The notes under the pieces: model-generated
Told to the model about the DNA's origin: nothing
The model's database searches: none
The model's input: the letters and a program-made list of their open reading frames with translations, nothing else
Source of the DNA: Nitrosomonadaceae bacterium
Lineage (GTDB): Bacteria > Pseudomonadota > Gammaproteobacteria > Burkholderiales > Nitrosomonadaceae
Length of the DNA: 64,000 nucleotides
Direction: 5' to 3'
Assembly: GCA_030646695.1 (NCBI GenBank)
Contig: JAUSLF010000022.1
Coordinates: 1 to 64,000 of the forward strand
Part shown: piece after piece, positions 4,810 through 63,695 of the stretch
Layout: each line of letters begins with the position of its first letter
Position numbering within the stretch: the stretch's first letter is position 1
Translations under genes and position numbers: made by a program

Positions 4810-5835
4810 TCATTCGTTCTCCATCGCGGCTGTGTATTTGCCTTGGCGGGCCGCGCTATTCAGGCGCGCCCGCTGGTACAGCGCTTGCTGCGCGATTATC
4901 TTGTTCGCCGCCTCGCCGCGCCATGCCTTAAGCACGGGTGCCTGCAGGGCGCGCCCGTAGGAGAAGCTCAAGACCCACGGTTGCCTTTCTGCGTTGGCAT
5001 TCATGGCGTTGAGGTTGGCCGTGGCCGCCGCCTCACTCTGCCCGCCAGAGAGAAAATTGATTCCGGGCACCGCTGCTGGCACCGTGCGCCGCAGGCAGGT
5101 GAGAGTAGCCTGCGCCACCTGTTGGGGTGTGACTTGCTTGAGGCATGCGCTGCCCGGCACAACCATGCTGGGTTTCAAGAGCATGCACTCAAGCGCGACG
5201 CGTTGCTGGTGCAGCGCGTGAAACACTGCATGTAGCACCTCTTCGGTGACGCGTGCGCAAGTCGCGAGCGTGTGGTCACCGTCCATCAATACCTCGGGTT
5301 CGACGATCGGCACCAGGCCCTGCTCCTGGCAGATGGCTGCGTAGCGCGCCAAGGCATGGGCATTGGCTGCAATCGCCTGCGGCGTCGGGAGGCCAGCGCC
5401 GATGGCAATCACCGCGCGCCACTTGGCAAAACGCGCGCCCAGTTGTTTGTATTCGCTCAACCGCTGTGCCAGACCGTCTAGACCCTGCGTCACTTTCTCT
5501 TCTGGAAAACCGGGCAGCGGCATCGTGCCCTTATCCACCTTGATTCCGGGCACCATGCCTTGTGCTGTCAGCAACTGCGGCAGCGGCACACCTGCCGCAG
5601 TTTTTTGTTTTAGTGTTTCCTCGAACAGGATGACGCCGCTAATAAAATCGCCCAGTCCGGGCGTAGAAAACAACAGCTCCCGGTAATCGCGCCGGGTCTC
5701 CTCAGTGGACGCCACATTCACCCCCTTAAACCGTTTCGCGATGGTGCCATCGCTCTCGTCGGCCGCGAGAATCCCCTTGCCCGGCGCCGTCAGCTCCGCC
5801 ACCGTCTTTTCCAACTCTTGTATAGATAACGACAT
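4810..5835 (-). CDS. Fructose-bisphosphate aldolase, class I
   Basis: It cleaves fructose-1,6-bisphosphate to dihydroxyacetone phosphate and glyceraldehyde-3-phosphate through a Schiff base. The protein has 341 residues, the usual length of the animal/plant-type class I family. GKGILAADES is at the N-terminus, and the Schiff-base lysine is Lys221 in LLKPSMVVPG. The ATG at 5835 is chosen because GGAGG stands four bases upstream; a start seven codons earlier has no such site. It directly follows a pgi remnant and precedes pgm. Class I aldolases of this type are less common in bacteria than class II, but occur in several betaproteobacteria. The activity assignment is firm. Confidence 0.95.
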   Translation of the reverse strand: MSLSIQELEKTVAELTAPGKGILAADESDGTIAKRFKGVNVASTEETRRDYRELLFSTPGLGDFISGVILFEETLKQKTAAGVPLPQLLTAQGMVPGIKVDKGTMPLPGFPEEKVTQGLDGLAQRLSEYKQLGARFAKWRAVIAIGAGLPTPQAIAANAHALARYAAICQEQGLVPIVEPEVLMDGDHTLATCARVTEEVLHAVFHALHQQRVALECMLLKPSMVVPGSACLKQVTPQQVAQATLTCLRRTVPAAVPGINFLSGGQSEAAATANLNAMNANAERQPWVLSFSYGRALQAPVLKAWRGEAANKIIAQQALYQRARLNSAARQGKYTAAMENE

Positions 5836-5852
5836 AGAACCTCCATCTGTGA

Positions 5853-6112
5853 TCAATCAATCGTTTTGAATCGCCTCAACAACATCGCCGCGATGCGTTC
5901 ATTCAAACCACAGGCGCTGGCCAGTTCCAGCAACAGGCGAGCGTCTCGCCGATGATATGCTGTTTGGAGTAATCGAGATATAGGCCGGCGGCCTTGGCGT
6001 GCAGACGCTCGCCGCGTGCGGGGTCGGCGGCGAACAGTTCACGCAGGTGATGCCGTTGCTGTTGCCCGGCATGTTGCTGCAACGCCTGCCATCGCGGCCG
6101 CCGGGTCAACAA
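5853..6112 (-). pseudogene. Remnant of glucose-6-phosphate isomerase (N-terminal ~85 codons)
   Basis: The translation [22 protein letters not shown] and YLDYSKQ, then GETL matches the first part of the intact Pgi at 16189-17823 ([29 protein letters not shown]). After GETLA the frame breaks. Moving one frame restores [20 protein letters not shown], again Pgi-like, until a TGA at 5855-5853, 18 bases before the aldolase start. About 85 of 540 codons survive, so this is a frameshifted, 3'-deleted copy. It lies directly behind tal, the position expected of an ancestral tal-pgi pair. The start is uncertain: TTG at 6112, or an ATG further up in another frame. Confidence 0.85.
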
Positions 6113-6166
6113 GGATGTGGAGGATTGCAGGTGCGGTTGGAGCCATGACGATGCTCATCGGTGGCT

Positions 6167-7255
6167 TCAGCGGGCGCTTGCCAGCGCGGCACTCTTGTCA
6201 GTGATGCGCTGCAGCAGCTGTTGCCAGGACTTGACGAACGATTGCGCTCCGTCACGCTGCAGTTGGGTCGCGAGCGCATCGACATCGATGCCGACCTGCG
6301 CGAAGCGCGCCAGTATGGCCTCGGCATCGCCGCCGTCCGCGGCCATCATACCCTTGAGTTCGCCACGCTCGGCGAAGGCATGTAGGGTCTTCTCGGGCAT
6401 GGTGTCGATGGTGTCCGGCGCGGCCAGCGCTTCGACGTACAAGGTATCCGATGCCTTGGGATCCTTGGTGCCGGTACTGGCCATGAGCAGTCGCTGCGGA
6501 CGTGCCCCGGCGGCAGCAAGCCTGTGCCAGCGCGGTGAGGCCAGCAGCTCGCGATAGGCCCGGTAAGTACGCCCGCCAATCGCGATGCCGAGTTTGTTGC
6601 GGAGCTCTTCGGGCACCTTGTCGCTCACCGCCTTGTCCCAGCGGCTGACGAATAGCGAGGCGACTGAGCCGACGTGTGGGTCGAGCCCGGCGGCGATACG
6701 GCGTTCGATGCCGCGCAGATAGGCCTCGGCGGCGGCGAGGTATTGCTCGCGCGAGAACAACAGGGTGACATTGATCGGTACGCCGGTGAAAATTGATTCT
6801 TCGATCGCAGGAATGCCTTCGGGCGTACCAGGAATCTTGACGAACAGGTTCGGCCGATCGGCCTGCTGGTGGATCTGCCGCGCGGCCTTGATGCTGCCAT
6901 CGGTATCACTGGCCAGCAATGGTGAGACTTCCATCGAGACCCAGCCATCGATGTGATGGCTGGCGTCGAACGCTGGCCGGAACAGATCGGCGGCACGGCG
7001 CAGATCCTCCAGCGCCAATTCGATGAACAAGGTTTCGCCGGATTTCCCAGTCTGCGCCTTGTCGCGGATGCCGTCGTCGTAGGCGTCGGTGTTGCCGATT
7101 GCCTGGTCGAAGATGGTCGGGTTCGAGGTCAGGCCGGTGACTGATAACTCGTCGATGTAGCGGCGCAGGGTGCCGTCGTTGAGTATCTCGCGGGTGATGT
7201 TGTCCAGCCACAGACTCTGGCCGAGATCGTGTAATTGCCGGGTCTTCTTGTTCAT
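6167..7255 (-). CDS. tal: Transaldolase
   Basis: It transfers a dihydroxyacetone unit between sugar phosphates in the non-oxidative pentose phosphate pathway. The protein has 362 residues. The Schiff-base lysine is Lys140 in NLFVKIPGTPEG. Other family blocks are VTGLTSNPTIF near the N-terminus and LMASTGTKDP. The start at 7255 (MNKKTRQ) has AGGAG seven bases upstream; a longer open frame lacks support. It follows zwf by 110 bp and is trailed by a decayed pgi copy. This is the longer type of transaldolase, known from actinobacteria, cyanobacteria and proteobacteria, where it can be paired or fused with Pgi. Confidence 0.95.
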   Translation of the reverse strand: MNKKTRQLHDLGQSLWLDNITREILNDGTLRRYIDELSVTGLTSNPTIFDQAIGNTDAYDDGIRDKAQTGKSGETLFIELALEDLRRAADLFRPAFDASHHIDGWVSMEVSPLLASDTDGSIKAARQIHQQADRPNLFVKIPGTPEGIPAIEESIFTGVPINVTLLFSREQYLAAAEAYLRGIERRIAAGLDPHVGSVASLFVSRWDKAVSDKVPEELRNKLGIAIGGRTYRAYRELLASPRWHRLAAAGARPQRLLMASTGTKDPKASDTLYVEALAAPDTIDTMPEKTLHAFAERGELKGMMAADGGDAEAILARFAQVGIDVDALATQLQRDGAQSFVKSWQQLLQRITDKSAALASAR

Positions 7256-7365
7256 GTTTACTCCTGGTTCATGGATGGGGCGCGCGTCGCTACGCGATGG
7301 CGAAACGATCATTGTCGGGCAGCGTAGTTGTCCACATCAAGCAGACACCATATCGTCCAGCACCG

Positions 7366-8766
7366 TCATGCCACCACCTGCCCCGGTACGGGATTGTGCC
7401 AGCAGCCGTCCGCTGCGATCAGCGCATCAGCCTCTTTTGGTCCCCAGCTGTAGGGCTTGTAGAGGTGAACCGGGTGATGGGTCTTGAGGACTGGATCGAC
7501 CACTGCCCAAGCGGCCTCAACCGCATCCTCACGGGTAAAGAGCGCTCCATTGCCCGCCATGGCGTCGCCCAGAAGCCGCTCGTAGGGGGCTTCCGCTTCC
7601 TGTCCCGGCCGTTCACCGACCAGATAGAGCTCTCGCTGGTCGCCGACGAATTCCTTCCCCTCGCGCTTGACGCGAGCGGCGAGTGCGATGGCGGGATTGG
7701 GGTAGAGCCAGAAGCGCAGATAGTTGGCGCGTCCGGTCGCCGGCACGGAATCGGCGAACAACCTCGACGGTGGCGGCTTCAACTGGACCAGCACCTCGGC
7801 AACCTTTTCGCGCATGAATTTGCCGGAACGCAAATACCATGGCACCCCTTCCCAGCGCCAAGAATCGATGAAAAGCCGCAAGGCGCAGAAAGTCTCGACA
7901 TCGGAGTTCTTCGCCACATCCGGTTCTCTTCGGTAGCCAACGTACTGGCCGCGCACCAGATCGTCGGGTTTCAAAGGGCGCATGGCCTGAAAGACTTCAG
8001 TTTTCTGGCTGTGCACGGCCGCATAGCCCCTATGGGATGGCGGCTCCATGGCAAGCAGGGCGACGATCTGGAACAGATGGTTCTGGATCACGTCGCGTAG
8101 ACAACCGGTAGTTTCGTAAAACGCGCCGCGGTCCTTTATGCCGAAATCCTCGGATAGGGTCATCTGGACGCTGGCCACGTAGTTGCGGTTCCAGATTGGC
8201 TCCAGAAACGAATTGGCGAAGCGGAAGTAGAGGATATTCATGATCTCCTCCTTCCCAAGGTAGTGGTCGATGCGGAAGATTGAATCTTCCGGGAACACCG
8301 ACCGCACGACACAATTGAGCTCCCGCGCGGAGGTCAGGTCGCGTCCGAATGGCTTTTCGACGATGACCCGTGCATCCTTGGCGCAGCCAGCTTTCGCCAG
8401 GCCCTGCACCACGGTCGCGAACATGCTCGGATGAATCGCGAGATAGTGCACTGGTCGCACTGCGCCGTTTAGCGCCTGTTTCAGGCGGTCGAAGGTCGCG
8501 GCATCCTGGTAGTCGCCGTCTACGTATCGCAGTTGCGCGGACAGCTTGGCGAACGCGTCCGCATCGACGCCGCCGTTGTGCTCCAAGCTATCGCGCGCAT
8601 GTTCGCGCAGCTTGTCCAGCGTCCAGCCGGCACGGGCCACGCCGATGATCGGTATATCCAGATCGCCGCGCCGGATCATTGCTTGCAGCGCGGGGAATAT
8701 CTTCTTGTAGGCCAGATCGCCCGTAGCGCCGAAGAAAACAAAGGCATCGGAATGGAGTGCGTTCAT
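7366..8766 (-). CDS. zwf: Glucose-6-phosphate 1-dehydrogenase
   Basis: It oxidises glucose-6-phosphate to 6-phosphogluconolactone, the entry to the oxidative pentose phosphate pathway. FFGATGDLAYKK near residue 12 is the dinucleotide-binding loop and RIDHYLGKE is the substrate/catalytic signature. The ATG at 8766 is preferred over the GTG at 8772 because AGAAGGAG lies five bases before it. The gnd stop codon is only two bases upstream, so translation of gnd and zwf is probably coupled. The 466-residue length is normal for the family. No 6-phosphogluconolactonase gene is seen nearby. Confidence 0.96.
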   Translation of the reverse strand: MNALHSDAFVFFGATGDLAYKKIFPALQAMIRRGDLDIPIIGVARAGWTLDKLREHARDSLEHNGGVDADAFAKLSAQLRYVDGDYQDAATFDRLKQALNGAVRPVHYLAIHPSMFATVVQGLAKAGCAKDARVIVEKPFGRDLTSARELNCVVRSVFPEDSIFRIDHYLGKEEIMNILYFRFANSFLEPIWNRNYVASVQMTLSEDFGIKDRGAFYETTGCLRDVIQNHLFQIVALLAMEPPSHRGYAAVHSQKTEVFQAMRPLKPDDLVRGQYVGYRREPDVAKNSDVETFCALRLFIDSWRWEGVPWYLRSGKFMREKVAEVLVQLKPPPSRLFADSVPATGRANYLRFWLYPNPAIALAARVKREGKEFVGDQRELYLVGERPGQEAEAPYERLLGDAMAGNGALFTREDAVEAAWAVVDPVLKTHHPVHLYKPYSWGPKEADALIAADGCWHNPVPGQVVA

Positions 8767-36389: not shown

Positions 36390-36801
36390 AGGGGGGCAGG
36401 CGGCAGCCCGGATAGGTGTCCAGACGCATTCTCACCTCAGACTACCGCTTTTTTCAGGGATCGAAGATCAAAATGGGCGTTTGACAGCGGTACTTAAGTC
36501 GAGGACACTTTCGTGCGTGCGGTTGAGTTTTCTATCCTCAGTATAGACGGGCTGACGGTGGACGGGACGGCGTAGATATTATGATGCGTACCCATTTGGC
36601 TGGCGAACCATGATACTCTTTGCCTCGAAGGCCGACCTGCGAAGTTCGAAGAGCAAGCAGCGTAATTGAATTGTCACGAATCCAAAACACGCGAATTCAA
36701 TCCGACCCCGACCCCTTTAATTTCCCTTTAATTCTCTTCTTTAATTCGCTTAATTCTTTTGGCGCGGGGTAGTTCATTTCTTTAATTCCGCGCAACCCGC
36801 C
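36390..36801. other. Non-coding junction between AddA-like gene and Hsp70 cassette
   Basis: No supported gene is found in these 412 bases. The last third is AT-rich, with TTTAATT or TTAATT words near 36716, 36727, 36740, 36749 and 36781. It also holds a dispersed-repeat copy at 36694-36722. It marks the core/accessory boundary. Confidence 0.6.
36694..36722 (-). repeat. Dispersed repeat copy A (downstream edge of Hsp70 cassette)
   Basis: On the minus strand it reads AATTAAAGGGGTCGGGGTCG followed by GATTGAATT. It is related to the copies at 39993-40015 and 61324-61346, which share AATTAA, GGG, a C/G-rich core and a closing AATT. From memory such units resemble short palindromic repeats scattered in proteobacterial genomes beside REP-associated transposases. 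No transposase is present here. Confidence 0.55.
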
Positions 36802-38472
36802 CTACCTGTAGGTAACGGTCGGTTCCCACCGTGTTCCATCGGTTTGCGCGTCAAACTGCGCAGCCTCCTCAGCAAGCTCAGGTAGCTCTCGTGCCGCTCC
36901 GCCAATGGCTACAGCAAGGCGCTGATAGTCACTCACGTATTTTTCATAGTCTTCGGTTATCCACGCAGGCACATCCAATGCGTGACGGAGCCCCAATCTA
37001 TGCCCGTGTACGTCCACATATCCCTTCGCAAGCGCCTGAACCATGGATAGCCCCGCGCCGCCACCCGTCAACACGACACTAATTTCATCCCTGCCATTCC
37101 GTTTGAATGTCGCAACTTTATTGGCCCAGCTTTCGTGAGTAGCTCTTAGGGAAGACTCAAACTTGTCTCTAAGCGCGCTGCTGAGATCCAACATTGGTTG
37201 ACTTTTTTCGAACTCATCCTTTGTAACAATCACCTTGCTCCCATTCGATAGAACAGTTTCCAATGAGCCGGTATTCATCAGTAACTCTTTGTTCTCGCGT
37301 ATACCCAACGCCAACTGAGTCGCTGCAAACGGGTAATCGACGCTACCTGGCCGAACGTGGGCCTTTTCAAGAATCATCGCGTGTAAGAAACCGTCTATTG
37401 TGTCACCGGCTTGAGCAATTGCATCAACCGAGCCACCGATTTGCCAGATCTTGAATCGGCCGATCTTCTGGTCTTGATCAGTCCAAAACGCGGCATAGTC
37501 CGATGTGCCCGCCCCAATGTCGACGACAACGAAAAGTCCTCGATCACGCTCTTCCTCACTGACAACACGGCTGGCGGCTGCCGCAACCGGCTCAGGCAGC
37601 CCGCGGTCAACAAGATGATCTGGCAATTGTTGAAGCTCGTTCACACTATCAATAGTGGCCTTAAGCACATCGGCCGGGATGCCCTCTTTCCATTTTTCAC
37701 TAAACGTGTCTGCAAGAATTTGTGCTTTTGCCAGCATTTTTCTCAGCTCACCCTCCGCCCAGCCAAGCCGCGTTGGCTCCCAACAAGGTCGCGCAAACCG
37801 CCTGGTCGAATATCGCTCACCACAATCAGCCGCAAGTGCGCTCGTAGCAATGTCAGTAAAGTAAGCCAAATACGCGAGAACCATATCTGCATTAGTGAAG
37901 GGGACCTGAGTTGGATTGATCTCAGGTTCTAAGCGTCCACTCATCAGCGTTTCAAGCGTTCCCTGACTGAGCCGCTGTTTGATGGAGTCGAACCGGCGAC
38001 GGCCACTACCAGATTCAGCGTTACTCTTTGTAAGTGCGTCGCAGCCAAAATAAACGCGGCCAGAGTTTGAGATATATAGCGACGACTGCAAACCAAAGGG
38101 ACTGGTCTCGTCACCGGCTTGCCGCCCGAGTGGTAGCGCGACCAATGGCTTCTTATCACCTCGTGTCGCTGCCGCTTTGGACATCGCTGTACCAAAATCG
38201 AGGCATAGCAACACGTCGGTTCGCGCTGATGATTGGCTCTTCAAGGATTCGATATTGAGTCGCTCGGCACGATCACGAAGTATGTGCGCTGGGGGCGCGG
38301 ACAACACAGGCTCATTTGGTGCTGTGCCTCCTAACAACTCCAGTGCAACGCGTAGCGCACCGAACTCTCCAGATGAGACCGGACCCGGAAGTCGCAACTG
38401 TCCTGTTTCTGGAACGCGCTCCATGCGCTGAAGAAGGCTTTCAAGAAGTGCCTTCGCTACCGACTTATCCAT
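36802..38472 (-). CDS. Hsp70-like ATPase lacking a substrate-binding domain
   Basis: This 556-residue protein has the actin/Hsp70 ATPase fold. Phosphate-1 motif LCLDFGTAMSKA is at residues 89-100, the Hsp70-type link EPVAAAASRVVSEE near 294-307, phosphate-2 VVVDIGAGTSDY at 315-326, and the adenosine motif VVLTGGGAGLSMV at 466-478. An 80-residue N-terminal extension precedes the fold. The chain ends about 80 residues after the adenosine motif, so there is no beta-sandwich substrate-binding domain or lid as in DnaK. The start at 38472 has only a weak GGGTAAG upstream. It is second in a two-gene unit, 33 bases behind the 473-residue gene. Codon use and GC look lower than in neighbours. Hsp70 family membership is firm; biological role is unknown. 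Confidence 0.85.
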   Translation of the reverse strand: MDKSVAKALLESLLQRMERVPETGQLRLPGPVSSGEFGALRVALELLGGTAPNEPVLSAPPAHILRDRAERLNIESLKSQSSARTDVLLCLDFGTAMSKAAATRGDKKPLVALPLGRQAGDETSPFGLQSSLYISNSGRVYFGCDALTKSNAESGSGRRRFDSIKQRLSQGTLETLMSGRLEPEINPTQVPFTNADMVLAYLAYFTDIATSALAADCGERYSTRRFARPCWEPTRLGWAEGELRKMLAKAQILADTFSEKWKEGIPADVLKATIDSVNELQQLPDHLVDRGLPEPVAAAASRVVSEEERDRGLFVVVDIGAGTSDYAAFWTDQDQKIGRFKIWQIGGSVDAIAQAGDTIDGFLHAMILEKAHVRPGSVDYPFAATQLALGIRENKELLMNTGSLETVLSNGSKVIVTKDEFEKSQPMLDLSSALRDKFESSLRATHESWANKVATFKRNGRDEISVVLTGGGAGLSMVQALAKGYVDVHGHRLGLRHALDVPAWITEDYEKYVSDYQRLAVAIGGAARELPELAEEAAQFDAQTDGTRWEPTVTYR

Positions 38473-38505
38473 TTTTCTTACCCTTTATTGAAATTGTTAT
38501 TATCG

Positions 38506-39927
38506 TCATTGACTAGTGACGATCGCTCTGACAACAATATGCAATCTTCCAGATGTATCGCGGCGCACAACACCAGGACGCGCGACTTTGACCTGAGCCG
38601 CGCCGCCTTCTCCTTGCACCATCGCGTGTTCAACAGGGGAGAACGGAATGGTTTCGCCCGGGTCACCGAATAGGCGGATACCACGCTGATCTGCGACCGC
38701 AGTGACTGCAGTTGCTAACTGATCAAAATACGCATTTGCATTTTCGTTTTCGGATGATGAGGCGTTGGATCGCGTTTTTTTCTCATCCGCTAGGACCAAC
38801 AATGCACGCGCTATGTAACGATCTGCCTCAAGCAACTGCCCTTGTTCTGAATCGAAGTCGGCATCATCTTCTTTGGAAACACGGCCTGTTTTTAGCCAGC
38901 TCTGAACAGCTGGTGTGGCTCCAGCCATTTCTTCCAAAATGGCGCGCGTATGTTGAAGTGAGCGTTCTCTCGTTCCTGTGCATAGATCCAAGACATCAAA
39001 TAGACCTTCATCCCTAATCCCTAACCGAGCAGACAATCTGATCGCATCGATTACAACCCGTTTGACGTCAGCAATCGCTTTCGAACGCGTAACAAAAGTG
39101 TTCCACCCGCTTGCTAGAAACCATCTCTTGCAGGAACTTAGGCTCGAGTAGATTGTGCGATCAAGCATGAGTGAAAAGCGTGTGCGCACAATTGCTGTGA
39201 TTAGATGCGCCACTTCTTCCGTCAGCGCCTGTATTACCTTGACGTCTTGTGGTGGTCCACATTTCTCAAATGAATGGGCTAAAAGGTCCCGGAGTTGTCT
39301 CCCTATTTCTGGACCAGGTGCGGGCCCGTAGGCCGCTGTTGCCGCACATGTTGCAGCAACCACGCGACGCAAGAGCTTAGCTGTGGATTCGCTAGGATTT
39401 TCAGTTACCCGTATTGCATTGATATTGGTAGTAAGGCTACGTAACGCGTCATCCAGCCCAACACTCTCGCCAATCAATGTCGATATTAATTTTTCTCGCG
39501 CTTTCTCCGCAGTAGGCTCAGCCATTGCCTCTCTGGCAACATATTCTCGTGCCCAACTCGGTCTGACGAACTCGATTGCGCTCGCTATGTAATAGCGCTC
39601 ATTTCCATCCACAAGAAGGTTAACAGGCGGTAAGGGATCTACTAGCGAATCTTTCACAGCTTGAATCACAGGCTTCGATTTTTTCTTTGCAATGGCTCTT
39701 ATCAACTCGAGCATCGAAACTGCTCTTAACCGATCCTGGGGGTCGGCACCTATTGCGCTTCCGCGCTTAAGCCTCTCAACACCAAGTGCGAACTCTGGCG
39801 AATCCAGTACTGCAAAAATACGCTTTGCGTTGACGAGCTCCCGCGCAGCTGCTATCTGGCTTCCAACTGAGTCTCCAGAAGCGAATTGTCGCAGAAGTTC
39901 ACCATCCGACGTACGTTCTGAAGTCAT
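38506..39927 (-). CDS. Uncharacterised helical protein with GrpE-like C-terminal domain
   Basis: It has 473 residues and no overall family that I recognise. Residues 1 to ~400 look mainly alpha-helical, with repeated Leu/Ala/Arg-rich stretches, and have no signal peptide or membrane segment. The last 55 residues are beta-rich: GETIPFSPVEHAMVQGEGG, then VKVARPGVVRRD and GRLHIVVRAIV. This order resembles the GrpE beta-wing, where PFDPNxHEA is followed by a V...GY...GR..R.A.V.V strand pair. GrpE is the nucleotide exchange factor of DnaK, and the next gene is an Hsp70-like ATPase, so I infer an exchange-factor role. GGGG stands six bases before the ATG. The domain match is by eye and needs a profile search. 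Confidence 0.55.
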   Translation of the reverse strand: MTSERTSDGELLRQFASGDSVGSQIAAARELVNAKRIFAVLDSPEFALGVERLKRGSAIGADPQDRLRAVSMLELIRAIAKKKSKPVIQAVKDSLVDPLPPVNLLVDGNERYYIASAIEFVRPSWAREYVAREAMAEPTAEKAREKLISTLIGESVGLDDALRSLTTNINAIRVTENPSESTAKLLRRVVAATCAATAAYGPAPGPEIGRQLRDLLAHSFEKCGPPQDVKVIQALTEEVAHLITAIVRTRFSLMLDRTIYSSLSSCKRWFLASGWNTFVTRSKAIADVKRVVIDAIRLSARLGIRDEGLFDVLDLCTGTRERSLQHTRAILEEMAGATPAVQSWLKTGRVSKEDDADFDSEQGQLLEADRYIARALLVLADEKKTRSNASSSENENANAYFDQLATAVTAVADQRGIRLFGDPGETIPFSPVEHAMVQGEGGAAQVKVARPGVVRRDTSGRLHIVVRAIVTSQ

Positions 39928-39973
39928 TGTTTACCCCAACATAAAAATGTTCTCCTGTATACGCACTCTTCAT

Positions 39974-39994
39974 TTATTGATTCCATATCAATAA
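39974..39994. promoter_or_regulatory. Perfect 8-bp inverted repeat upstream of the Hsp70 cassette
   Basis: TTATTGAT and ATCAATAA are separated by TCCAT, 47 bases before the start of the 473-residue gene. It could be an operator for the cassette. It abuts the dispersed repeat at 39993, so it may instead be part of that element's edge. Confidence 0.45.
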
Positions 39995-40015
39995 TTAAAG
40001 GGCCAGGCACGAATT
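39993..40015 (+). repeat. Dispersed repeat copy B (upstream edge of Hsp70 cassette)
   Basis: It reads AATTAAAGGGCCAGG, then CACGAATT, 23 bases, in the orientation opposite to copy A at 36694-36722. The two copies therefore bracket the two-gene cassette as inverted repeats. The sequence next to it passes straight into a copy of the 3' end of the SNF2 gene. Confidence 0.6.
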
Positions 40016-40160
40016 ACCCAAGCCTGAATAAATCGCGCAATTCTTCATTGCCCAGATCGCCTATCCAGTTTTCGCCTATGCCGACGGTCAGGTCGGCGAG
40101 TTGACGCTTGGATCGGATCATGTCGTTGATGCGCTCTTCGAAAGTGCCACGGGTGATGAA
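40016..40160 (-). pseudogene. 3' fragment of a SNF2 helicase gene
   Basis: This 145-base stretch aligns with 40996-41140, the 3' end of the intact SNF2 gene, at an offset of 980 bases with roughly ten mismatches. Read on the minus strand it encodes FITRGTFEERIND, RSKRQLADLTVGIGENWIG and NEELRDLF, matching the last ~48 residues of the helicase. Several of the differences fall in third codon positions, so the fragment seems to come from a diverged, once-functional homologue and not from a fresh duplication. It ends abruptly at both sides in repeat-like sequence. Confidence 0.85.
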
Positions 40161-40170
40161 GTGCTCCGAA

Positions 40171-40202
40171 AATGGGGTCAGACTCGACTCATTTATTTAA
40201 TT
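40171..40202 (+). repeat. Possible dispersed repeat variant (AATGGGGTCAGACTCGAC)
   Basis: It begins AATGGGGTCAGACTCGAC and ends TTTATTTAATT. The GGGGTCAGACTCGAC word resembles a motif that I recall as common next to REP-like elements in proteobacteria. It lies exactly where the SNF2 fragment stops and before the broken toxin gene. Relation to copies A-C is by theme, not by alignment. Confidence 0.35.
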
Positions 40203-40250
40203 CGTGGCGATGGCAAGATATAAGCGGCACGTATTAGCCACTAAACCGCT

Positions 40251-40337
40251 CTAGCTAAGCCCCAACGCTTTGGATTCATACCAAGCCTGAGCCTCCAGAA
40301 GTTCTTGCTCTGCCTCTGGACGGAGCACAATCAACAT
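40251..40337 (-). pseudogene. ParE/RelE-type toxin, truncated after 28 codons
   Basis: The ATG overlaps the antitoxin stop codon (TGATG). The 28 residues MLIVLRPEAEQELLEAQAWY plus ESKALGLS are the typical N-terminus of a RelE/ParE toxin (RPEAExELxEAxxWYE). A TAG follows at 40253-40251 and the sequence beyond, towards the repeat at 40171-40202, shows no ParE-like coding in any frame. About 70 residues, including the catalytic C-terminal part, are missing. It should be non-functional. Confidence 0.8.
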
Positions 40338-40567
40338 CAGGGTTTATTCGGAAATAATTTAGATTGAACCTGTTCCCACGGGACGGCTGTGGAAGGGTCA
40401 GCACGGTGCGCTGCAACGCGACGATGTAGCTCAGTCTTTTGGGCTTGTGACAACTCAACGGTATTTGGTGCCTCCGCAACAATGCTATCCCAGATGTCCT
40501 CGACGAGTTGAATGCGCTCGGAGACGGACAACTTCATGTATTCAGTAGTGGCGGCGGGAGTAGGCAT
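40337..40567 (-). CDS. Addiction-module antitoxin (PF09720/TIGR02574-like), now orphan
   Basis: This 76-residue protein has the family block LSVSERIQLVEDIWDSI and the closing RRVAAHRADPSTAVPWEQV, both characteristic of the small antitoxins paired with RelE/ParE toxins. The ATG at 40567 gives the usual short N-terminus; a longer open frame is not supported. The toxin gene directly downstream is truncated to 28 codons, so this antitoxin has lost its local partner. It may still neutralise a related toxin elsewhere or be decaying. Confidence 0.88.
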   Translation of the reverse strand: MPTPAATTEYMKLSVSERIQLVEDIWDSIVAEAPNTVELSQAQKTELHRRVAAHRADPSTAVPWEQVQSKLFPNKP

Positions 40568-40634
40568 GGATGTAGTATAAATCAAGGCCGACGTTAAGGT
40601 AAGGGGATGAGAATTAAGGAGGCGATTTGCCGCC

Positions 40635-40901
40635 TCACTTGAATAGCGGGTTGAATTTGGCGACCAAGGGAAACTGGCCGGGGTTGCGAATAGATTCCAC
40701 AGCCAGATCGACATCAAGTAGAGGCCAATAAAGATGATTGGGTGTTGGCCATTCGACGGTAGTAATCTGCTCCATAGTGGCCTGCTTGAACCAGGGAAAC
40801 TCTTCATAGGGGACAAAAAGTTCCTCATCTTTCAAAAGCAACCAGAAGCCTTTGCTTGATGCCAAGGAAACTTCGACTTCAGAAGTGGCTACGCCAGGCA
40901 T
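40635..40901 (-). CDS. DUF2442 domain protein
   Basis: This 88-residue protein has the DUF2442 pattern SSKGFWLLLKDEELFVPYEEFPWF, of which the key part is GFWLLLKDEELFVPYEEFP, and a C-terminal HLYWPLLDVDL block. GAGGAG stands ten bases before the ATG at 40901. DUF2442 genes usually follow a DUF4160 gene in a small two-gene unit with toxin-antitoxin-like distribution. Here only the 3' end of a DUF4160-like gene precedes it, overlapping by 23 bases. Function of the family is not established. Confidence 0.82.
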   Translation of the reverse strand: MPGVATSEVEVSLASSKGFWLLLKDEELFVPYEEFPWFKQATMEQITTVEWPTPNHLYWPLLDVDLAVESIRNPGQFPLVAKFNPLFK

Positions 40902-40965
40902 GGATGATCTCCTCATAATGATCCTGCACCAACAACGATGCTTCATTGATCCGTTTTTGATTCAT
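40879..40965 (-). pseudogene. 3' fragment of a DUF4160-like gene
   Basis: The frame MNQKRINEASLLVQDHYEEI, then IHAWRSHF and TGA, resembles the C-terminal helix of DUF4160 proteins, which end in a pattern like ...ELVEEHxEELLEAWxEFF. It overlaps the start of the DUF2442 gene as such pairs do. An in-frame stop lies five codons before the ATG and the SNF2 gene stop is only 30 bases away, so the N-terminal two thirds are gone. The match is short. Confidence 0.45.
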
Positions 40966-40993
40966 CGCTGACTCAATCTGGTGGCTCTAAGTC

Positions 40994-43900
40994 TCACCCA
41001 AGCTTGAACAAATCGCGCAGCTCCTCGTTGCCCAGATTGCCTATCCAGTTTTCGCCTATGCCGACGGTCAGATCGGCGAGTTGACGCTTGGAGCGGATCA
41101 TGTCGTTGATGCGCTCTTCGAAAGTGCCACGGGTGATGAAGCGGTGCACCTGCACGTTTTTTTGCTGCCCGATGCGATAGGCCCGGTCGGTGGCCTGGGC
41201 TTCGACTGCGGGGTTCCACCATAAATCATAATGGATCACGCTGGAGGCCGCCGTGAGATTCAGCCCCGTGCCGCCTGCTTTCAGCGACAGGAGGAACACC
41301 CGCTCGGTGCGGTCGTTCTGGAATTTCTCCACCATTTCATCGCGTTTCTTGCGCGAGACTCCACCGTGCAAGAATAGCGGGGCTGATCCATAACGTTTCT
41401 CTACCCAGCCTGACAACAGTTTACCCATTTCACGGAACTGGGTGAACACCAGCATCTTTTCATGGCTGGTGTGGATGGTTTCGAGCAGGTCGAGGAACAG
41501 CGCAGCTTTGCCGGAAAGCGCCGCATCGTCCTTGCCCTTCTTCAGGTATTGGGCAGGATGGTTGCATATCTGTTTCAGTGCCAGGATCATTTGCAATACC
41601 AGTCCTTGGCGCTTGAAAGTGTCGGACTCGCCGTTGATCACGCGCAGGCTTTCGCGCACCACCGATTCATAGAGGGCAACCTGTTCCTGCGACAACTCGC
41701 AATACTGATCCTGTTCGATCTTATCCGGCAGGTCGCTGATGATGCTTTTGTCGGACTTGAGGCGGCGCAGCAAAAACGGCGCGGTCACCTTGCGGAAGCG
41801 CTGCACGGCGTGCTGGTCGTGGTGGCTCTGTATCGGAACCGCAAACTCCTTGACGAAATGGCTGAGGTTGCCCAGGTAGCCCCGGTTGGCGAAATCCATG
41901 ATGCTCCAGTATTCGGAGAGGCGGTTCTCCACCGGGGTACCGCTCATGGCGATGAAGGTTTGCGCCGGGATGGCCTTGATCGCCTTGGCCTGCGCCGCTG
42001 CCGGGTTCTTGATATTCTGCGCCTCGTCGGCGATCACCATGCACCAGGACATCTTTTTCAAGGCAGTCTGGTCGGTGCGCACCACGCCATAGGTGGTCAG
42101 CAGCACATCCGGGCGCGTTTGTTCCAGCTCCCGTTTGGTCCCGTGGTAGATCGCCGCCGTCAGTGTCGGCGCGAAGCGGGCGATCTCTTTTTGCCAGTTG
42201 GTGAGCAGGGTGGTTGGCACGACCACCAGAGCGCCCGCATCCTTGAGCGCGCCTTCTTCCTTGAGCTTCAGGAGTATGGCGATCACTTGCAAGGTTTTCC
42301 CCAAGCCCATGTCGTCTGCGATGACGCTGCCGAAGCCCGCATGATGGTTGCGGTAGAGCCATGCGTAGCCCCGTTGCTGGTAGGGGCGCAGGGTGGCGTT
42401 GAGGTGGTGCGGCAATGGCACTTCACCGATATCGGTCAGTTCCCGGATGACCTGTTTCATAGCCTTGTCCAGCACTACTGGAGTCCCGGCGTATTCCTCG
42501 GCCAGCGCGATGCGCAACAACTCCGCGCCTGATAGCGAGGGTGGTTTTTGCAGTTGGGTGCGCAGGCGTTCGATTTCTTCCGGGTCGAGATAGACGTATT
42601 CGCTCTTGAAACGGATGATGCCGGAAGCGCTCTTGACCAGCTTTTCGAATTCGGCGCGGGTGAGCAGGCTGTTGCCCAAGGCGATCTTCCAGTCGAAGGC
42701 GAACAGGTCGTTGATATCGAGAAAGCTGCTGCTGTCGCGGGCTTTGGCCGACATCTGCATGGACAGGCGAGGCCGCAGAAGATGATCGAGTCCTTTCGGC
42801 AACAGGGCGCGAATGCCGAGTAGGCGGATGACCGGCAAGGTGTCGAAAAGAAAGGCTGGCAACTCCGGCGCGGACATGGGTAGCGGCTGCTTTGCGCCGC
42901 TGCTGACATAGCCGTTCAGTGGCGGAAAAAATCCGGACAGCAGGGACACGGTTTGCAGCACGCCGAAGCGCTCCGCCTCCCAGCGTTTGCCGGTGAGCAC
43001 CTTATCCAGCGGAACCGGTTTCTCCAGCGGCGTTTCACGGTTTTCGACGGCGAGGGACAAGGCGAAATCATTTGCGGTATCCGCCTCCTCCAGCCATAGC
43101 ACCGGCGCATGGCTGTACCGGGACAAATGAAAGCGCGACAGCCAGACCTGAATTCCAGCAGCGATGGAGCCTTCGCCGGGGCCATCGAACACGGCGCGTC
43201 CCGTGGTGAAAAACAGACGGGTAATTTTATTGTCATCGGATGTGGCGAGTCCATTCCATTGATGGATGTAATGACCGAGCACCAGCGAACACAGTGCTTC
43301 GGCCTGCGCCTGTGGCGTCAGCGGCGACTGCTTCCGTCCCTGCTTGAGCACGGCCAATCCGGCTGGCAGGCCTTGCGACAAACGTAGCATCAGGCTCTGG
43401 ACAGCCCCATCAAGCGTGGCGGGCAACCAGCGCAGTCCGGCATGGCCGCCATCAACGGCGAATAATTGCGGGAATATGGCACCCTGTGCCAGGAGGTGCA
43501 GGGTCGCCAGGCGGACGTGGTAAAGCGCCGCCACCTGCGGTTGAAAATCCGGAAGGTCAGCAGCGTTTGTCTGCGACAGCGCGTGCAGTATCACATTCCA
43601 GTCCGCCATATCTTCCATACCGGATACGATATGCGCATAGCCTGCATCGAACTGGATCAGCGGCGCATCGCTAGCATGGAAGCGCCGTCCGCTTTCCTGA
43701 GTAACGTGAAACTTGCGCAGCGAGTCCTTATCTACCTTGCCCACTTGTAGGAGAGGGAGAGGGAAATGGGGATGGCGGGTTTCATCATTAGGGGCGGAAT
43801 ATTTGCCATGACCGTTAGGCACGAGCTCCAATTCCTGCCGTGCGGCGCGGCTAATTCGCTTGAGGGTTTTTCCATAGAGCAGACGGAAGTCGCCATGAGG

Positions 43901-44611
43901 ATAGAAAGCCGGTTTCTCAGGAAGGATGCGAACCAGCGTGTTGGCAAGGTTTGGCAGGCTCGAAAAATCGAGAGCGTTGAGCGCGCTGGAGGCATCTGCT
44001 GTGGATACCTCGCCGGGTTGCCCTTCCGCGTCGGCTCGCAAGGCCAGCATATCCTTCACCACGGGTAACGCAGCCTTCGCTTCCCGCTCGATGGCGATGT
44101 TGCGTTCCTTGAGGGCTGCGGTCAGGTCAATGCCGCGCAGGGAAAACACCAGGAAAGGGTTGCCATCAATCTCGCGGCTGACAAGATAGATGGCCGCTGC
44201 AAGATGCTTGCACGGCACTGCCCAGTCGGGGCAGGAACAGTGCATATCGAGGTCTTTCCATTTCTCCGGGAATACGGCGATGCCAAGTTGTTTCGCCTGG
44301 TCGAGCACCGCAGGATCGAGCTCGCGGTTGAGCATTCTAGCGATGACCACCGGCGATGCGGCCAATGCATCCAGTAGCCGCTTTGCATCTTTACCCGAAA
44401 CCGGCGGGACGGTGACGCGCACTTCGTAAGGCCTGGGACGCGATCCCTGCACCTTGGCCGAAATGACGCCAGCACGGATTTCCAGGCTCCTGACCGCGCC
44501 CTTGCTGGCATAGGCTCGCCCCCGTGGCAGGCGGTTGTCGTAATCAATGTGGGTGAGAGCTTTCAGCCACTGCTCGCCCCACCAGGTCTGTCCATAAGTT
44601 TGTCGTGCCAT
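40994..44611 (-). CDS. SNF2-family helicase with N-terminal SWIM zinc finger
   Basis: This 1205-residue protein has a SWIM zinc finger near residue 130 (HCSCPDWAVPCKHLAAA, pattern CxC...CxH), a long linker region, then the SNF2 ATPase: IADDMGLGKTLQV (Walker A), VIADEAQNIKN (DEAQ-type box), MSGTPVENRLSEYW, and the C-terminal helicase lobe with FLLSLKAGGTGLNLT and DRAYRIGQQKNVQVHR. Such bacterial proteins bind DNA or nucleoprotein and may remodel stalled polymerase complexes, like RapA. The start at 44611 (MARQTYGQTWWGEQWL) agrees with the usual N-terminus. A partial copy of its 3' end lies at 40016-40160. A 356-residue frame on the other strand is a shadow. Confidence 0.93.
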   Translation of the reverse strand: MARQTYGQTWWGEQWLKALTHIDYDNRLPRGRAYASKGAVRSLEIRAGVISAKVQGSRPRPYEVRVTVPPVSGKDAKRLLDALAASPVVIARMLNRELDPAVLDQAKQLGIAVFPEKWKDLDMHCSCPDWAVPCKHLAAAIYLVSREIDGNPFLVFSLRGIDLTAALKERNIAIEREAKAALPVVKDMLALRADAEGQPGEVSTADASSALNALDFSSLPNLANTLVRILPEKPAFYPHGDFRLLYGKTLKRISRAARQELELVPNGHGKYSAPNDETRHPHFPLPLLQVGKVDKDSLRKFHVTQESGRRFHASDAPLIQFDAGYAHIVSGMEDMADWNVILHALSQTNAADLPDFQPQVAALYHVRLATLHLLAQGAIFPQLFAVDGGHAGLRWLPATLDGAVQSLMLRLSQGLPAGLAVLKQGRKQSPLTPQAQAEALCSLVLGHYIHQWNGLATSDDNKITRLFFTTGRAVFDGPGEGSIAAGIQVWLSRFHLSRYSHAPVLWLEEADTANDFALSLAVENRETPLEKPVPLDKVLTGKRWEAERFGVLQTVSLLSGFFPPLNGYVSSGAKQPLPMSAPELPAFLFDTLPVIRLLGIRALLPKGLDHLLRPRLSMQMSAKARDSSSFLDINDLFAFDWKIALGNSLLTRAEFEKLVKSASGIIRFKSEYVYLDPEEIERLRTQLQKPPSLSGAELLRIALAEEYAGTPVVLDKAMKQVIRELTDIGEVPLPHHLNATLRPYQQRGYAWLYRNHHAGFGSVIADDMGLGKTLQVIAILLKLKEEGALKDAGALVVVPTTLLTNWQKEIARFAPTLTAAIYHGTKRELEQTRPDVLLTTYGVVRTDQTALKKMSWCMVIADEAQNIKNPAAAQAKAIKAIPAQTFIAMSGTPVENRLSEYWSIMDFANRGYLGNLSHFVKEFAVPIQSHHDQHAVQRFRKVTAPFLLRRLKSDKSIISDLPDKIEQDQYCELSQEQVALYESVVRESLRVINGESDTFKRQGLVLQMILALKQICNHPAQYLKKGKDDAALSGKAALFLDLLETIHTSHEKMLVFTQFREMGKLLSGWVEKRYGSAPLFLHGGVSRKKRDEMVEKFQNDRTERVFLLSLKAGGTGLNLTAASSVIHYDLWWNPAVEAQATDRAYRIGQQKNVQVHRFITRGTFEERINDMIRSKRQLADLTVGIGENWIGNLGNEELRDLFKLG

Positions 44612-44636
44612 GAAGTCTGTGTGCGAAAGTTAAAAT

Positions 44637-44662
44637 CCACTAATCCCGGGCTGGATTAGTGG
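44637..44662. promoter_or_regulatory. Perfect 10-bp inverted repeat upstream of the SNF2 gene
   Basis: CCACTAATCC and GGATTAGTGG are separated by CGGGCT, 25 bases before the SNF2 start codon. It could be an operator or a terminator-like hairpin; no T-run follows. No strong ribosome-binding site is seen between it and the ATG. Confidence 0.55.
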
Positions 44663-44823
44663 TGATGATGGGTGGCGCGCATCTGGGGATACTAACCGTC
44701 AGGAGGTCAATATTCAACCAGCGAGAGCGGCATCGGCAGAACTATCTAAATTGCAGAAGAGTGAATAGGCTTCAGCGATTCACTCCAAATGAAGTTGATA
44801 CTTCATCATGCCGGATCAATAAG

Positions 44824-44946
44824 ATGGTCACGGTGCCGCCATCGGCTGTCCAAGGAGATATAGCACTACTTGGACAAAACTTCTTGCGTAAGGTGGATGT
44901 ACTCCAGGCAGATGATAAAATGGTGATTGGATTCAGGAGCAAATAG
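44824..44946 (+). pseudogene. Possible C-terminal remnant of a retropepsin-like aspartic protease
   Basis: The end of an open frame reads VTVPPSAVQGDIALLGQNFL, then RKVDVLQADDKMVIGFR. This resembles the end of clan AA aspartic proteases (...LLGMxFLxxLxxxxxGxxLxL). No DTG catalytic motif is found upstream in any frame, so only a remnant would be present. Apart from this and the palindrome at 44637-44662, the 399-base gap 44612-45010 shows nothing. Confidence 0.3.
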
Positions 44947-45046
44947 TCCCGGCGATATTGGAAATACTCCGGTGTATTTTTATACTTATTGAAATGCCCT
45001 GCTTTGGGTTATGCTACTGACAAAACTACGCGCAACAAGATTTCGC

Positions 45047-45595
45047 ATGTTCACCCCCGCACACCACATCACCATGACCCTACCACGCCGCATCGCCGCT
45101 GCCTGCATCTGCTGCCTGCTGAGTGTCGGCACTGCGACCGCAGCGCCTATCGATATTGCGGGGGAAGCCTACAACAAAAGTGCTCACGTGCAGGCCATCA
45201 AGCTATTCAGGCCGTTGGCTGCCCAGGGAAACGCAGATGCGCAAGCCATGCTGGGCATGATGTATCTCAAGGGCGAAGGCACTACCCGGAGTTATCCGGA
45301 AGCTATGAAATGGCTCATGTTGTCGGCAGCACAGGGCAATGCAAGTGCGCAAAATAACCTTGGATCGATGCATTTCAATGGCGATGGCGTAGTCCGGAAT
45401 TATCCCGATGCCCTGAGATGGTTTCGCTTGTCTGCGATGCAAGGAGATAAGCATGGGCAAACCAGCCTGGCTGCAATGTATCTCAATGGTTATGGCGTAG
45501 CCAAGGATGTGAAGGAAGCCGTGAAGTGGTATCGCCTGGCTGCAGCGCAGGGGGATGAAAATGCCGCGCAAGCCCTGAAACGTTTAAATCAGTAG
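45047..45595 (+). CDS. Secreted Sel1-repeat protein
   Basis: The protein has a signal peptide (RRIAAACICCLLSVGTATAA, then APID) and about three to four Sel1-type repeats of 36 residues, each ending in a (A/R)xKWxxLSAxQG-like turn: AQAMLGMMYLKGEGTTRSYP, AQNNLGSMHFNGDGVVRNYP, and GQTSLAAMYLNGYGVAKDV. Sel1 repeats are TPR-like and bind other proteins. Starts at 45011, 45047 and 45074 are all in frame, and none has a good ribosome-binding site. The gene is followed one base later by an Adhesin_E-like gene. The two together match the single fused protein at 62109-63695. Confidence 0.85.
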   Translation: MFTPAHHITMTLPRRIAAACICCLLSVGTATAAPIDIAGEAYNKSAHVQAIKLFRPLAAQGNADAQAMLGMMYLKGEGTTRSYPEAMKWLMLSAAQGNASAQNNLGSMHFNGDGVVRNYPDALRWFRLSAMQGDKHGQTSLAAMYLNGYGVAKDVKEAVKWYRLAAAQGDENAAQALKRLNQ

Positions 45596-62108: not shown

Positions 62109-63695
62109 ATGCTCACCCATAAGCACGACATCATGCCCCACAACATCATCATGTTTTTTCAGCGTTGGATCACTGCTGCATGCATATACTGCATGCTTGG
62201 TGTCGGTACTGCGATCGCAGCGCCCATCGATGATGCGGCAAAAGCCTACAGCAAAGGTGATTACGTACAAGCTTTCAAGCTATTTAGGCCGTTAGCTGCT
62301 CAGGGAAATGCAAATGCACAAATGCTCCTTGGTTGGATGTATCGCGATGGCAAAGGTGTAACCCAAGATTATCGGGAAGCCGTGAAGTGGTATCGTTTGG
62401 CTGCGGCGCAGGGACTTGCAGACGCGCAAGATTACCTTGGTATGATGTATCACAATGGCGAAATCGTACCCCAAGATTTTGAGGAAGCCCTGAAGTGGTA
62501 TCGCCTGGCTGCGGCGCAGGGGTTTGCAATTGCGCAATTTAGCCTTGGTTCGATGTATCACAAAGGACAGGGCGTAACCCGGGATGATCAGGAAGCCTTG
62601 GGGTGGTATCGCTTGGCTGCGGCGCAGGGGGATATAAATGCGCAATATAGCCTTGGTGTGATGTATGCCAAGGGCTATGGTATAACCCGAGATGATCAGG
62701 AAGCCCTGAAGTGGTATCGCTTGGCTGCGGCGCAGGGGGATGAGCCTGCCAAGGAAATCCTAAAGCGCCCTGAAATGGTTGCGGCAGCGAAAAACCTCGC
62801 AACCATGCAAGCGCAATCTAAGCGACCTCAGCACCCAGCAGACGACATCCTCAAGAAACATCCGGCCGTAGCGCGCTACCTGCAAGAGCGAGACCTCAAT
62901 GATGCGAAAGCAGCTAGCCGTAAAGGTGACTACGCACAAGCTATCAAGATATTGAGGCCGTTAGCTGAACGGGGAGATGCAAGTGCGCAAACTGACCTTG
63001 GTGCGATGTATCGCGATGGCGAAGGCATAACCCAGGATTATTGGGAAGCCCTGAAGTGGTATCGCCTGGCAGCAGAGCAGGGAAATGCAGAGGCGCAAGC
63101 TATGCTTGGTTCAATGTATCACAATGGCGAAGGCGCAACCCAAGACTATCAGGAGGCCATGAAGTGGTATCGCCTAGCTGCGGCGCAGGGAAATGTAAAT
63201 GCGCAATTTAGCCTTGGTTGGACGTATGAAAATGGCCATGGCGTAACCCAGGATTATCAGGAAGCCGTGAAGTGGTATCGCCTGGCTTCAGCGCAGGGGC
63301 ATGAGCTTTCCAAGGAAATCCTAAAGTTTCCTAAAATGGTTGCGGCAGCACAAAGCCTCGCTACGGGGTGGGTTTTGGTTAGCTTTGATGGAACTTTTAC
63401 CATCTACGCCGATCCCGCCACCATTCGCAAGACGGGCAATAGGGTAAAAATGTGGGATCTGCTTGACTACAATATGGCTGACAAGATTTCTGGTAAGCCG
63501 TATATGTCAATAAGAGGACAAAGTGAATACGACTGCAAAGAGGAGAAGATTCGGTCACTCTACGCAACTTACCACTCTGAGAATATGGCCAGAGGCGAAG
63601 TAATTTCTACCGGCACGAAGCCTAGTAATTGGGAGCCAGTCGCGCCTGGCAGTATGGCGGCGGCGTTGTGGAAAATAGCCTGTAAGAAGCGGTAA
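62109..63695 (+). CDS. Secreted Sel1-repeat protein fused to an Adhesin_E-like domain
   Basis: This 528-residue protein begins with a signal peptide (MFFQRWITAACIYCMLGVGT, then AIAAPID; ATG at 62109 has AAAGG eight bases upstream, while 62151 gives the shorter signal). Sel1 repeats of 36 residues fill ~62-206 (four copies) and ~285-393 (three copies). The two blocks look like an internal duplication: each starts with KGDYxQAxKxxRPLA and ends with KEILKxPxMVAAAxxLAT. Residues ~420-528 form an Adhesin_E-like domain (GTFTIYADPATIR, YDCKEEKIRSL, NWEPVAPGS). The pair at 45047-45995 has the same two modules as separate genes. Confidence 0.85.
   Translation: MLTHKHDIMPHNIIMFFQRWITAACIYCMLGVGTAIAAPIDDAAKAYSKGDYVQAFKLFRPLAAQGNANAQMLLGWMYRDGKGVTQDYREAVKWYRLAAAQGLADAQDYLGMMYHNGEIVPQDFEEALKWYRLAAAQGFAIAQFSLGSMYHKGQGVTRDDQEALGWYRLAAAQGDINAQYSLGVMYAKGYGITRDDQEALKWYRLAAAQGDEPAKEILKRPEMVAAAKNLATMQAQSKRPQHPADDILKKHPAVARYLQERDLNDAKAASRKGDYAQAIKILRPLAERGDASAQTDLGAMYRDGEGITQDYWEALKWYRLAAEQGNAEAQAMLGSMYHNGEGATQDYQEAMKWYRLAAAQGNVNAQFSLGWTYENGHGVTQDYQEAVKWYRLASAQGHELSKEILKFPKMVAAAQSLATGWVLVSFDGTFTIYADPATIRKTGNRVKMWDLLDYNMADKISGKPYMSIRGQSEYDCKEEKIRSLYATYHSENMARGEVISTGTKPSNWEPVAPGSMAAALWKIACKKR
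62292..62735 (+). repeat. Tandem 108-bp coding repeats (Sel1), block 1
   Basis: About four 108-base units encode 36-residue Sel1 repeats. The DNA word GAAGCC, then TGAAGTGGTATCGC and TGGCTGCGGCGCAGGG recurs almost unchanged, so recombination between units is likely. Confidence 0.85.
62961..63288 (+). repeat. Tandem 108-bp coding repeats (Sel1), block 2
   Basis: About three units, each close to those of block 1. The linker of block 1 and the linker behind this block are also related, so the block duplication included the linker. Confidence 0.85.

Follow-up and report, generated by a model that had tools for sequence, protein, structure and literature searches.

The window analysed here is a stretch of 64,000 nucleotides from a Nitrosomonadaceae bacterium. 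Two adjacent genes on its minus strand, which we call A and B, lie within an accessory insertion between an AddA gene and a Sel1 gene. Gene A is transcribed first and gene B follows downstream. In coordinates and spacing, both open reading frames agree exactly with a first-pass annotation of this DNA. Scans for promoters and terminators gave results at chance level only. The features of the insertion are as follows.

36402..44970, no strand assigned: accessory insertion with AddA on one side and the Sel1 gene on the other, established by blastn of the loci and missing in congeners G001, G007 and G002
36802..38472, minus: gene B (PDC-M61B), a 556-residue reading frame for an ATPase with an Hsp70 nucleotide-binding domain (NBD)
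38473..38505, minus: A-B intergenic gap of 33 bp, with an AAAGGG Shine-Dalgarno-like site ahead of B
38506..39927, minus: gene A (PDC-M61A), a 473-residue reading frame for a solenoid protein with a GrpE-like end
40016..40161 and 40996..41141, no strand assigned: direct repeat (146 bp, 93.8% identical) made up of the SNF2 3' end and its copy
40337..40946, minus: genes for an antitoxin (PF09720) and a DUF2442 protein, flanked by the two repeat copies and not counted as components of A-B
40994..44611, minus: SNF2 helicase gene (SWIM, DUF3670), an accessory gene in its own right, outside the pair

A variable site next to AddA

In the three congeners that lack the insertion, AddA lies next to the Sel1 gene, and the interval between the two measures 8.57 kb in the window versus 638 bp in G007. 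At the same site, congener G004 carries a Drt8 reverse transcriptase gene with an RT-associated PD-DEXK gene, and G003 carries a gene that we judged by eye to encode a PemK/MazF-like toxin. Because the defence genes at this site differ among congeners, we regard it as a defence hotspot. Variation of the interval within the genus is seen in the window (36402-44970) and in loci L112 and L115. About 17 kb from the adjoining Sel1-repeat gene (45011-45595), at 62169-63659, its repeat region recurs in diverged copies with 70-77% DNA identity.

It had been remarked that the cassette has a lower GC content than its neighbours and lies between repeats and broken genes. Both observations hold: GC falls from about 0.61 in AddA to 0.49-0.53 in the region of the pair, and the 146-bp repeat duplicates the end of the SNF2 gene. 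This repeat looks like a duplication that arose from insertion of the antitoxin/DUF2442 pair. The SNF2 gene, which lies upstream of the pair, was considered as a third component and dropped; since it occurs without A and B in congeners G003 and G008, we treat it as a separate passenger. Core genes of Hma, BREX, DISARM or type I restriction-modification (RM) systems were not found at 32-45 kb of the window. The host genome as a whole has no HmaB but does contain type I methylase genes elsewhere, so it is possible that the pair acts in trans on a type I system.

Folds and conserved residues of the two proteins

The subdivisions of the two proteins and the nucleotide-binding motifs of B map to the window as follows.

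38875..39927, minus: A residues 1-351, HEAT/ARM-type alpha-solenoid (AF2 helices and VIA-align)
38509..38835, minus: A residues 365-473, long helices and GrpE-like beta-domain (VIA-align, hhalign)
38224..38472, minus: B residues 1-83, N-terminal extension preceding the NBD in the model
36868..38223, minus: B residues 84-535, Hsp70-type NBD (VIA-align)
38173..38208, minus: B phosphate-1 motif LLCLDFGTAMSK, residues 89-100, from the sequence; D92 and T95 correspond to DnaK D8 and T11
37495..37530, minus: B phosphate-2 motif VVDIGAGTSDYA, residues 315-326, from the sequence; D318, T323 and D325 correspond to DnaK D194, T199 and D201, in 42/42 homologues
37039..37077, minus: B adenosine motif VVLTGGGAGLSMV, from the sequence; it includes VVLTGGGAGL (residues 466-475), with G470 and G471 in 42/42 homologues

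The best PDB matches of a profile of 42 B homologues are Hsp70 NBDs (best E 1e-8). In the AF2 model of B (pLDDT 87), the NBD aligns with that of a DnaK model at a VIA-align Z of 29.4 over 345 residues (2.8 Å), and with crystal structures at Z 25-28; taken together, the matches to DnaK, BiP and Hsp110 NBDs span Z 25-29 over about 345 residues. We paired the residues of B with those of DnaK by motif. On this pairing, the equivalents of DnaK D8, T11, K70, E171, P172, D194, T199 and D201 are identical in all 42 homologues, although the equivalents of D8 and T11 sit in the seed pattern of the homologue scan. B residues 90-97 are accordingly not independent evidence, because the seed was CLDFGTAM, which inflates their apparent invariance. 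The complete Hsp70-type ATPase core claimed for B is thus present, with its three motifs where the first-pass annotation had placed them and with an NBD fold.

That annotation had also held that B lacks the substrate-binding domain of DnaK, and the homologues bear this out. Neither a VLLLDV-type interdomain linker nor a substrate-binding domain is found in any of the 42, and in each of them the chain stops 26-37 residues past the last NBD helix; we therefore consider the missing domain to be real. Its loss, together with that of the linker, makes classical peptide clamping and control by a J-protein unlikely. The homologues also keep the 83-residue N-terminal extension, which has conserved positions of its own. 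B is an Hsp70-NBD protein and not a canonical Hsp70 chaperone.

Searches of Pfam, NCBIfam and PHROGs place neither A nor B above the cut-off of any family. In NCBIfam, B shows weak similarity to HscA and FtsA, and it scores 21 bits against an HscA cut-off of 708.55. Grouping with a housekeeping HscA or DnaK, which would have spoken against a new system, is not seen. A filament ATPase of the FtsA/ParM type, suggested by NCBIfam, was dropped as a reading of B because both profile and fold put Hsp70 first.

In the AF2 model of A (pLDDT 93), about 20 helices lead into a pair of long ones (352-388 and 392-414), which a beta-domain of seven strands (417-472) follows. Residues 1-351 align with TSC2, importins and CAND1 at VIA-align Z 9-11. 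Residues 365-473 align with residues 79-186 of GrpE in a GrpE-DnaK model, at a Z of 8.7 that falls under VIA-align's cautious level for helical folds (rmsd 4.1 Å, 102 residues). The elements of the GrpE fold, namely a long helix, a short bundle and a beta-wing, are present in the structure of A, with moderate support. A comparison by hhalign with too narrow a set of GrpE sequences gave no match, and a broader set of 48 gave a modest one (P 0.0015) whose register matches end to end and which beats 60 of 60 shuffled controls. The sequence pattern G..GE..(E/P)(Y/F).P..HE...G....V.V.R.G......V.VK..V in A echoes the GrpE wing. Foldseek with the whole A model listed helical repeats alone among its top rows, the GrpE match having come from VIA-align, and a PDB search with the C-terminal profile of A found nothing. 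As the Pfam GrpE family (PF01025) matches none of 44 A proteins, we class the end of A as GrpE-like rather than GrpE.

Resemblance of the A C-terminus to GrpE, a nucleotide-exchange factor of Hsp70, is therefore moderately supported and not decisive; it gains weight because the fold, the weak profile signal and the Hsp70 motor encoded next door agree. The earlier description of A as a helical partner fits the solenoid and misses the GrpE-like domain at its end. Five A proteins have a match to the IF2_N domain (best E 6e-6). We recognised no effector domain, toxic or nuclease, in either A or B.

Distribution and genomic neighbourhoods of the pair

A two-sequence profile, run against 84,980 genomes, yielded 43 B homologues. 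With one viral contig added and one duplicate removed, these make 43 distinct loci; the duplicate, L037, repeats L036, whose 'Bacteroidia' label is probably a binning error. A adjoins B in all 43 loci, with A convergent in one (L062), and the gap between them is mostly 2-50 bp. The distance matrices of A and B correlate at r 0.97, a value reached in 0 of 2000 permutations; this indicates joint travel and not binding, because shared ancestry of linked genes would by itself give the same correlation. The hosts are Alpha-, Beta- and Gammaproteobacteria, Desulfobulbaceae and the viral contig. On that contig (IMG/VR, L034:6570-9776) the pair lies beside phage lysis-type genes and metabolic genes of the host, apparently as cargo of a prophage.

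No full-length B homologue was found in 60 relatives and no other among 369 genomes of the class, where the remaining matches are short and weak; A was found in none of 298 other genomes of the phylum. By tblastn, neither A nor B matched GenBank plasmids and B matched no phage, and a second viral scan gave no further copy. The pair had been proposed to be a mobile two-gene module, which is supported by its conserved adjacency, its absence from all searched congeners and the reuse of its site by other defence genes.

In 28 of the 43 loci, the pair is located within or next to a larger anti-phage system. This association is read from a single scan of the collection, for which two peptide patterns served as seeds, and some members of locus groups were placed there because they clustered with an annotated representative in blastp rather than by individual scans. 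Hma is the most frequent (10 loci), with the pair directly before HmaC and mostly after HmaB. The pair lies downstream of type I RM genes in seven loci and with BREX/Pgl genes in six (BrxL and PglZ, PglX, PglW, or Druantia DruE with BrxC-PglX). Three loci have an HKD-Snf2 helicase with a type III methylase or HEC-07, and in these DUF4391 is fused to A; two have DISARM genes. These host systems join DNA methylation to helicases or translocases. In locus L060 (1109-18760), from Thiorhodococcus minor, the pair has a Druantia DruE gene on one side and the BREX genes BrxC and PglX on the other. Locus L043 has a HEC-05-like gene between HmaB and the pair (5730-7445), and L070 has a gene of similar size in the same place (5709-7445).

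The pair is seen between HmaB and HmaC, or straight after HsdS or BrxL, often only a few bases apart. Since the genes next to A or B often share a few bases with them, these loci look like operons, and random adjacency of this kind inside operons would presumably be rare. On the tree of B, the BREX label requires at least five separate changes and the type I RM label at least four, which indicates that the cassette has been recruited repeatedly. Recurrent adjacency in distant genomes, mainly in defence islands or prophages, was a check proposed for the pair at the outset, and it gave a positive answer; the association with defence loci is strong. However, 15 of the 43 loci, and the locus of the window, have no recognised partner system, which means that the pair does not generally depend on a larger one. 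The neighbourhoods lend no support to a stress or secretion role, which had also been suggested.

Proposed function and related systems

The pair is already listed as a candidate. In PADLOC-DB 2.0, A matches PDC-M61A (PDLC04728, E 2.2e-53) and B matches PDC-M61B (PDLC04731, E 1.9e-141); because the matches run nearly end to end and the genes are adjacent, we identify the pair as PDC-M61, a candidate phage defence system. The entry resembles our pair in being a two-gene set with both proteins matched nearly full length, and differs from our analysis in having no description, fold, mechanism or test attached to it. The earlier naming of the pair as the window's best candidate for an undescribed system stands as regards publications, as we found no paper that names PDC-M61 or that describes an Hsp70 pair in BREX, Hma, RM or DISARM systems, but not as regards databases. 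Our literature search likewise found no report of phage protection by the pair, and did not find the solenoid-GrpE reading of A or the embedding in these systems described before.

We somewhat favour the hypothesis of a mobile accessory module for anti-phage defence, driven by ATP, in which B is an Hsp70 motor without a substrate-binding domain and A its dedicated solenoid exchange factor. The GrpE-like end of A would dock on B, the HEAT/ARM solenoid would supply the client binding that B lacks, and hydrolysis of ATP by B together with nucleotide exchange driven by A would power a cycle. Such a cycle may assemble, remodel or license large methylation-linked, helicase-bearing complexes like those of Hma, BREX, type I RM and DISARM. 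A solitary pair, as in the window, might perform the same role in trans or might act on a phage protein. The client could thus be part of a defence complex, which would be assembled, licensed or freed from a brake, or it could be a phage protein. Positions within operons and the DUF4391 fusion favour the former, while solitary and prophage copies keep the latter open.

Rather doubtful, in our estimation, is a stand-alone sensor that co-travels in defence islands, in which the solenoid of A would detect a phage protein and trigger exchange on B, and B would block the phage or the cell. Such a sensor would explain the window and the 15 loci without a recognised partner, the viral cargo and the fact that PADLOC lists a system of just two genes, and sensing linked to a chaperone has a reported precedent in bNACHT25 and DnaJ (PMC12169576). 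However, the operon positions and the DUF4391 fusion point to work within a host system, and neither protein has a recognisable toxic or nuclease effector domain.

It is less probable still that the pair is a regulator or inhibitor of host restriction belonging to mobile elements (counter-defence), or a safety brake against self-restriction. The pair does sit inside methylation-based systems that need control of self-damage, and it also occurs on a viral contig, but its loci are mostly chromosomal and co-operonic with systems that look intact, and the sequence gives no signal of inhibition. A housekeeping or stress chaperone paralogue of the HscA/DnaK type with its own exchange factor, to which the Hsp70 fold and the weak NCBIfam similarity to HscA and FtsA might point, is very improbable given the lack of a substrate-binding domain, the score of 21 versus 708 bits for HscA, the absence from 60 relatives and effectively all 369 class genomes, and the location in defence loci.

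The accessory module that we favour is a variant of the recruitment of Hsp70 and its exchange factors to conflict systems. Like Hsp70 and GrpE, B has an NBD with all catalytic residues and A ends in a GrpE-like helix and beta-domain; unlike them, B has neither linker nor substrate-binding domain, the GrpE-like end of A is preceded by a solenoid of 350 residues, and the locus has no J-protein. The nearest published systems are CoCoNuTs and GAP1-N2. In CoCoNuTs, Hsp70-like NBD and substrate-binding domains are fused to McrB or to the HEAT-bearing CnuC (PMC11090510). They share with A-B an Hsp70 ATPase and HEAT-like repeats in restriction-type immunity, but are McrBC fusions that retain the substrate-binding domain, whereas A-B is a separate two-gene module that lacks a GTPase and includes a GrpE-like part. 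GAP1-N2 GTPase conflict systems contain HSP70, GrpE and an extra HSP70 domain without the peptide-binding part, and so share even the truncated Hsp70; these systems are centred on a GTPase and occur in actinobacteria and firmicutes, and the excerpted text of the source mentions no solenoid-GrpE fusion (PMC7159879). Hma (a DUF499-centred, BREX-related system), BREX, type I RM and DISARM are frequent operonic hosts, and the pair lies outside their described parts. Neither the main text of a 2026 BREX survey that covers auxiliary genes and Hma-type systems (PMC12839542) nor that of the Hma description (PMC8565338) mentions Hsp70, GrpE or a chaperone.

These findings touch on the question of why large systems such as BREX, Hma and DISARM require such a number of components, and by what means they restrain and release their attack. 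Independent moves of the pair into several systems point to a shared step of control or assembly driven by ATP. More tentatively, the pair may be a general, interchangeable motor of chaperone type, recruited by unrelated immune systems of the methylation-based kind as an on/off switch for their complexes, which would amount to a control layer so far undescribed. In A-B, the client-binding role of Hsp70 seems to have shifted onto the exchange factor, and the two-gene cassette offers a small, testable handle on large defence systems.
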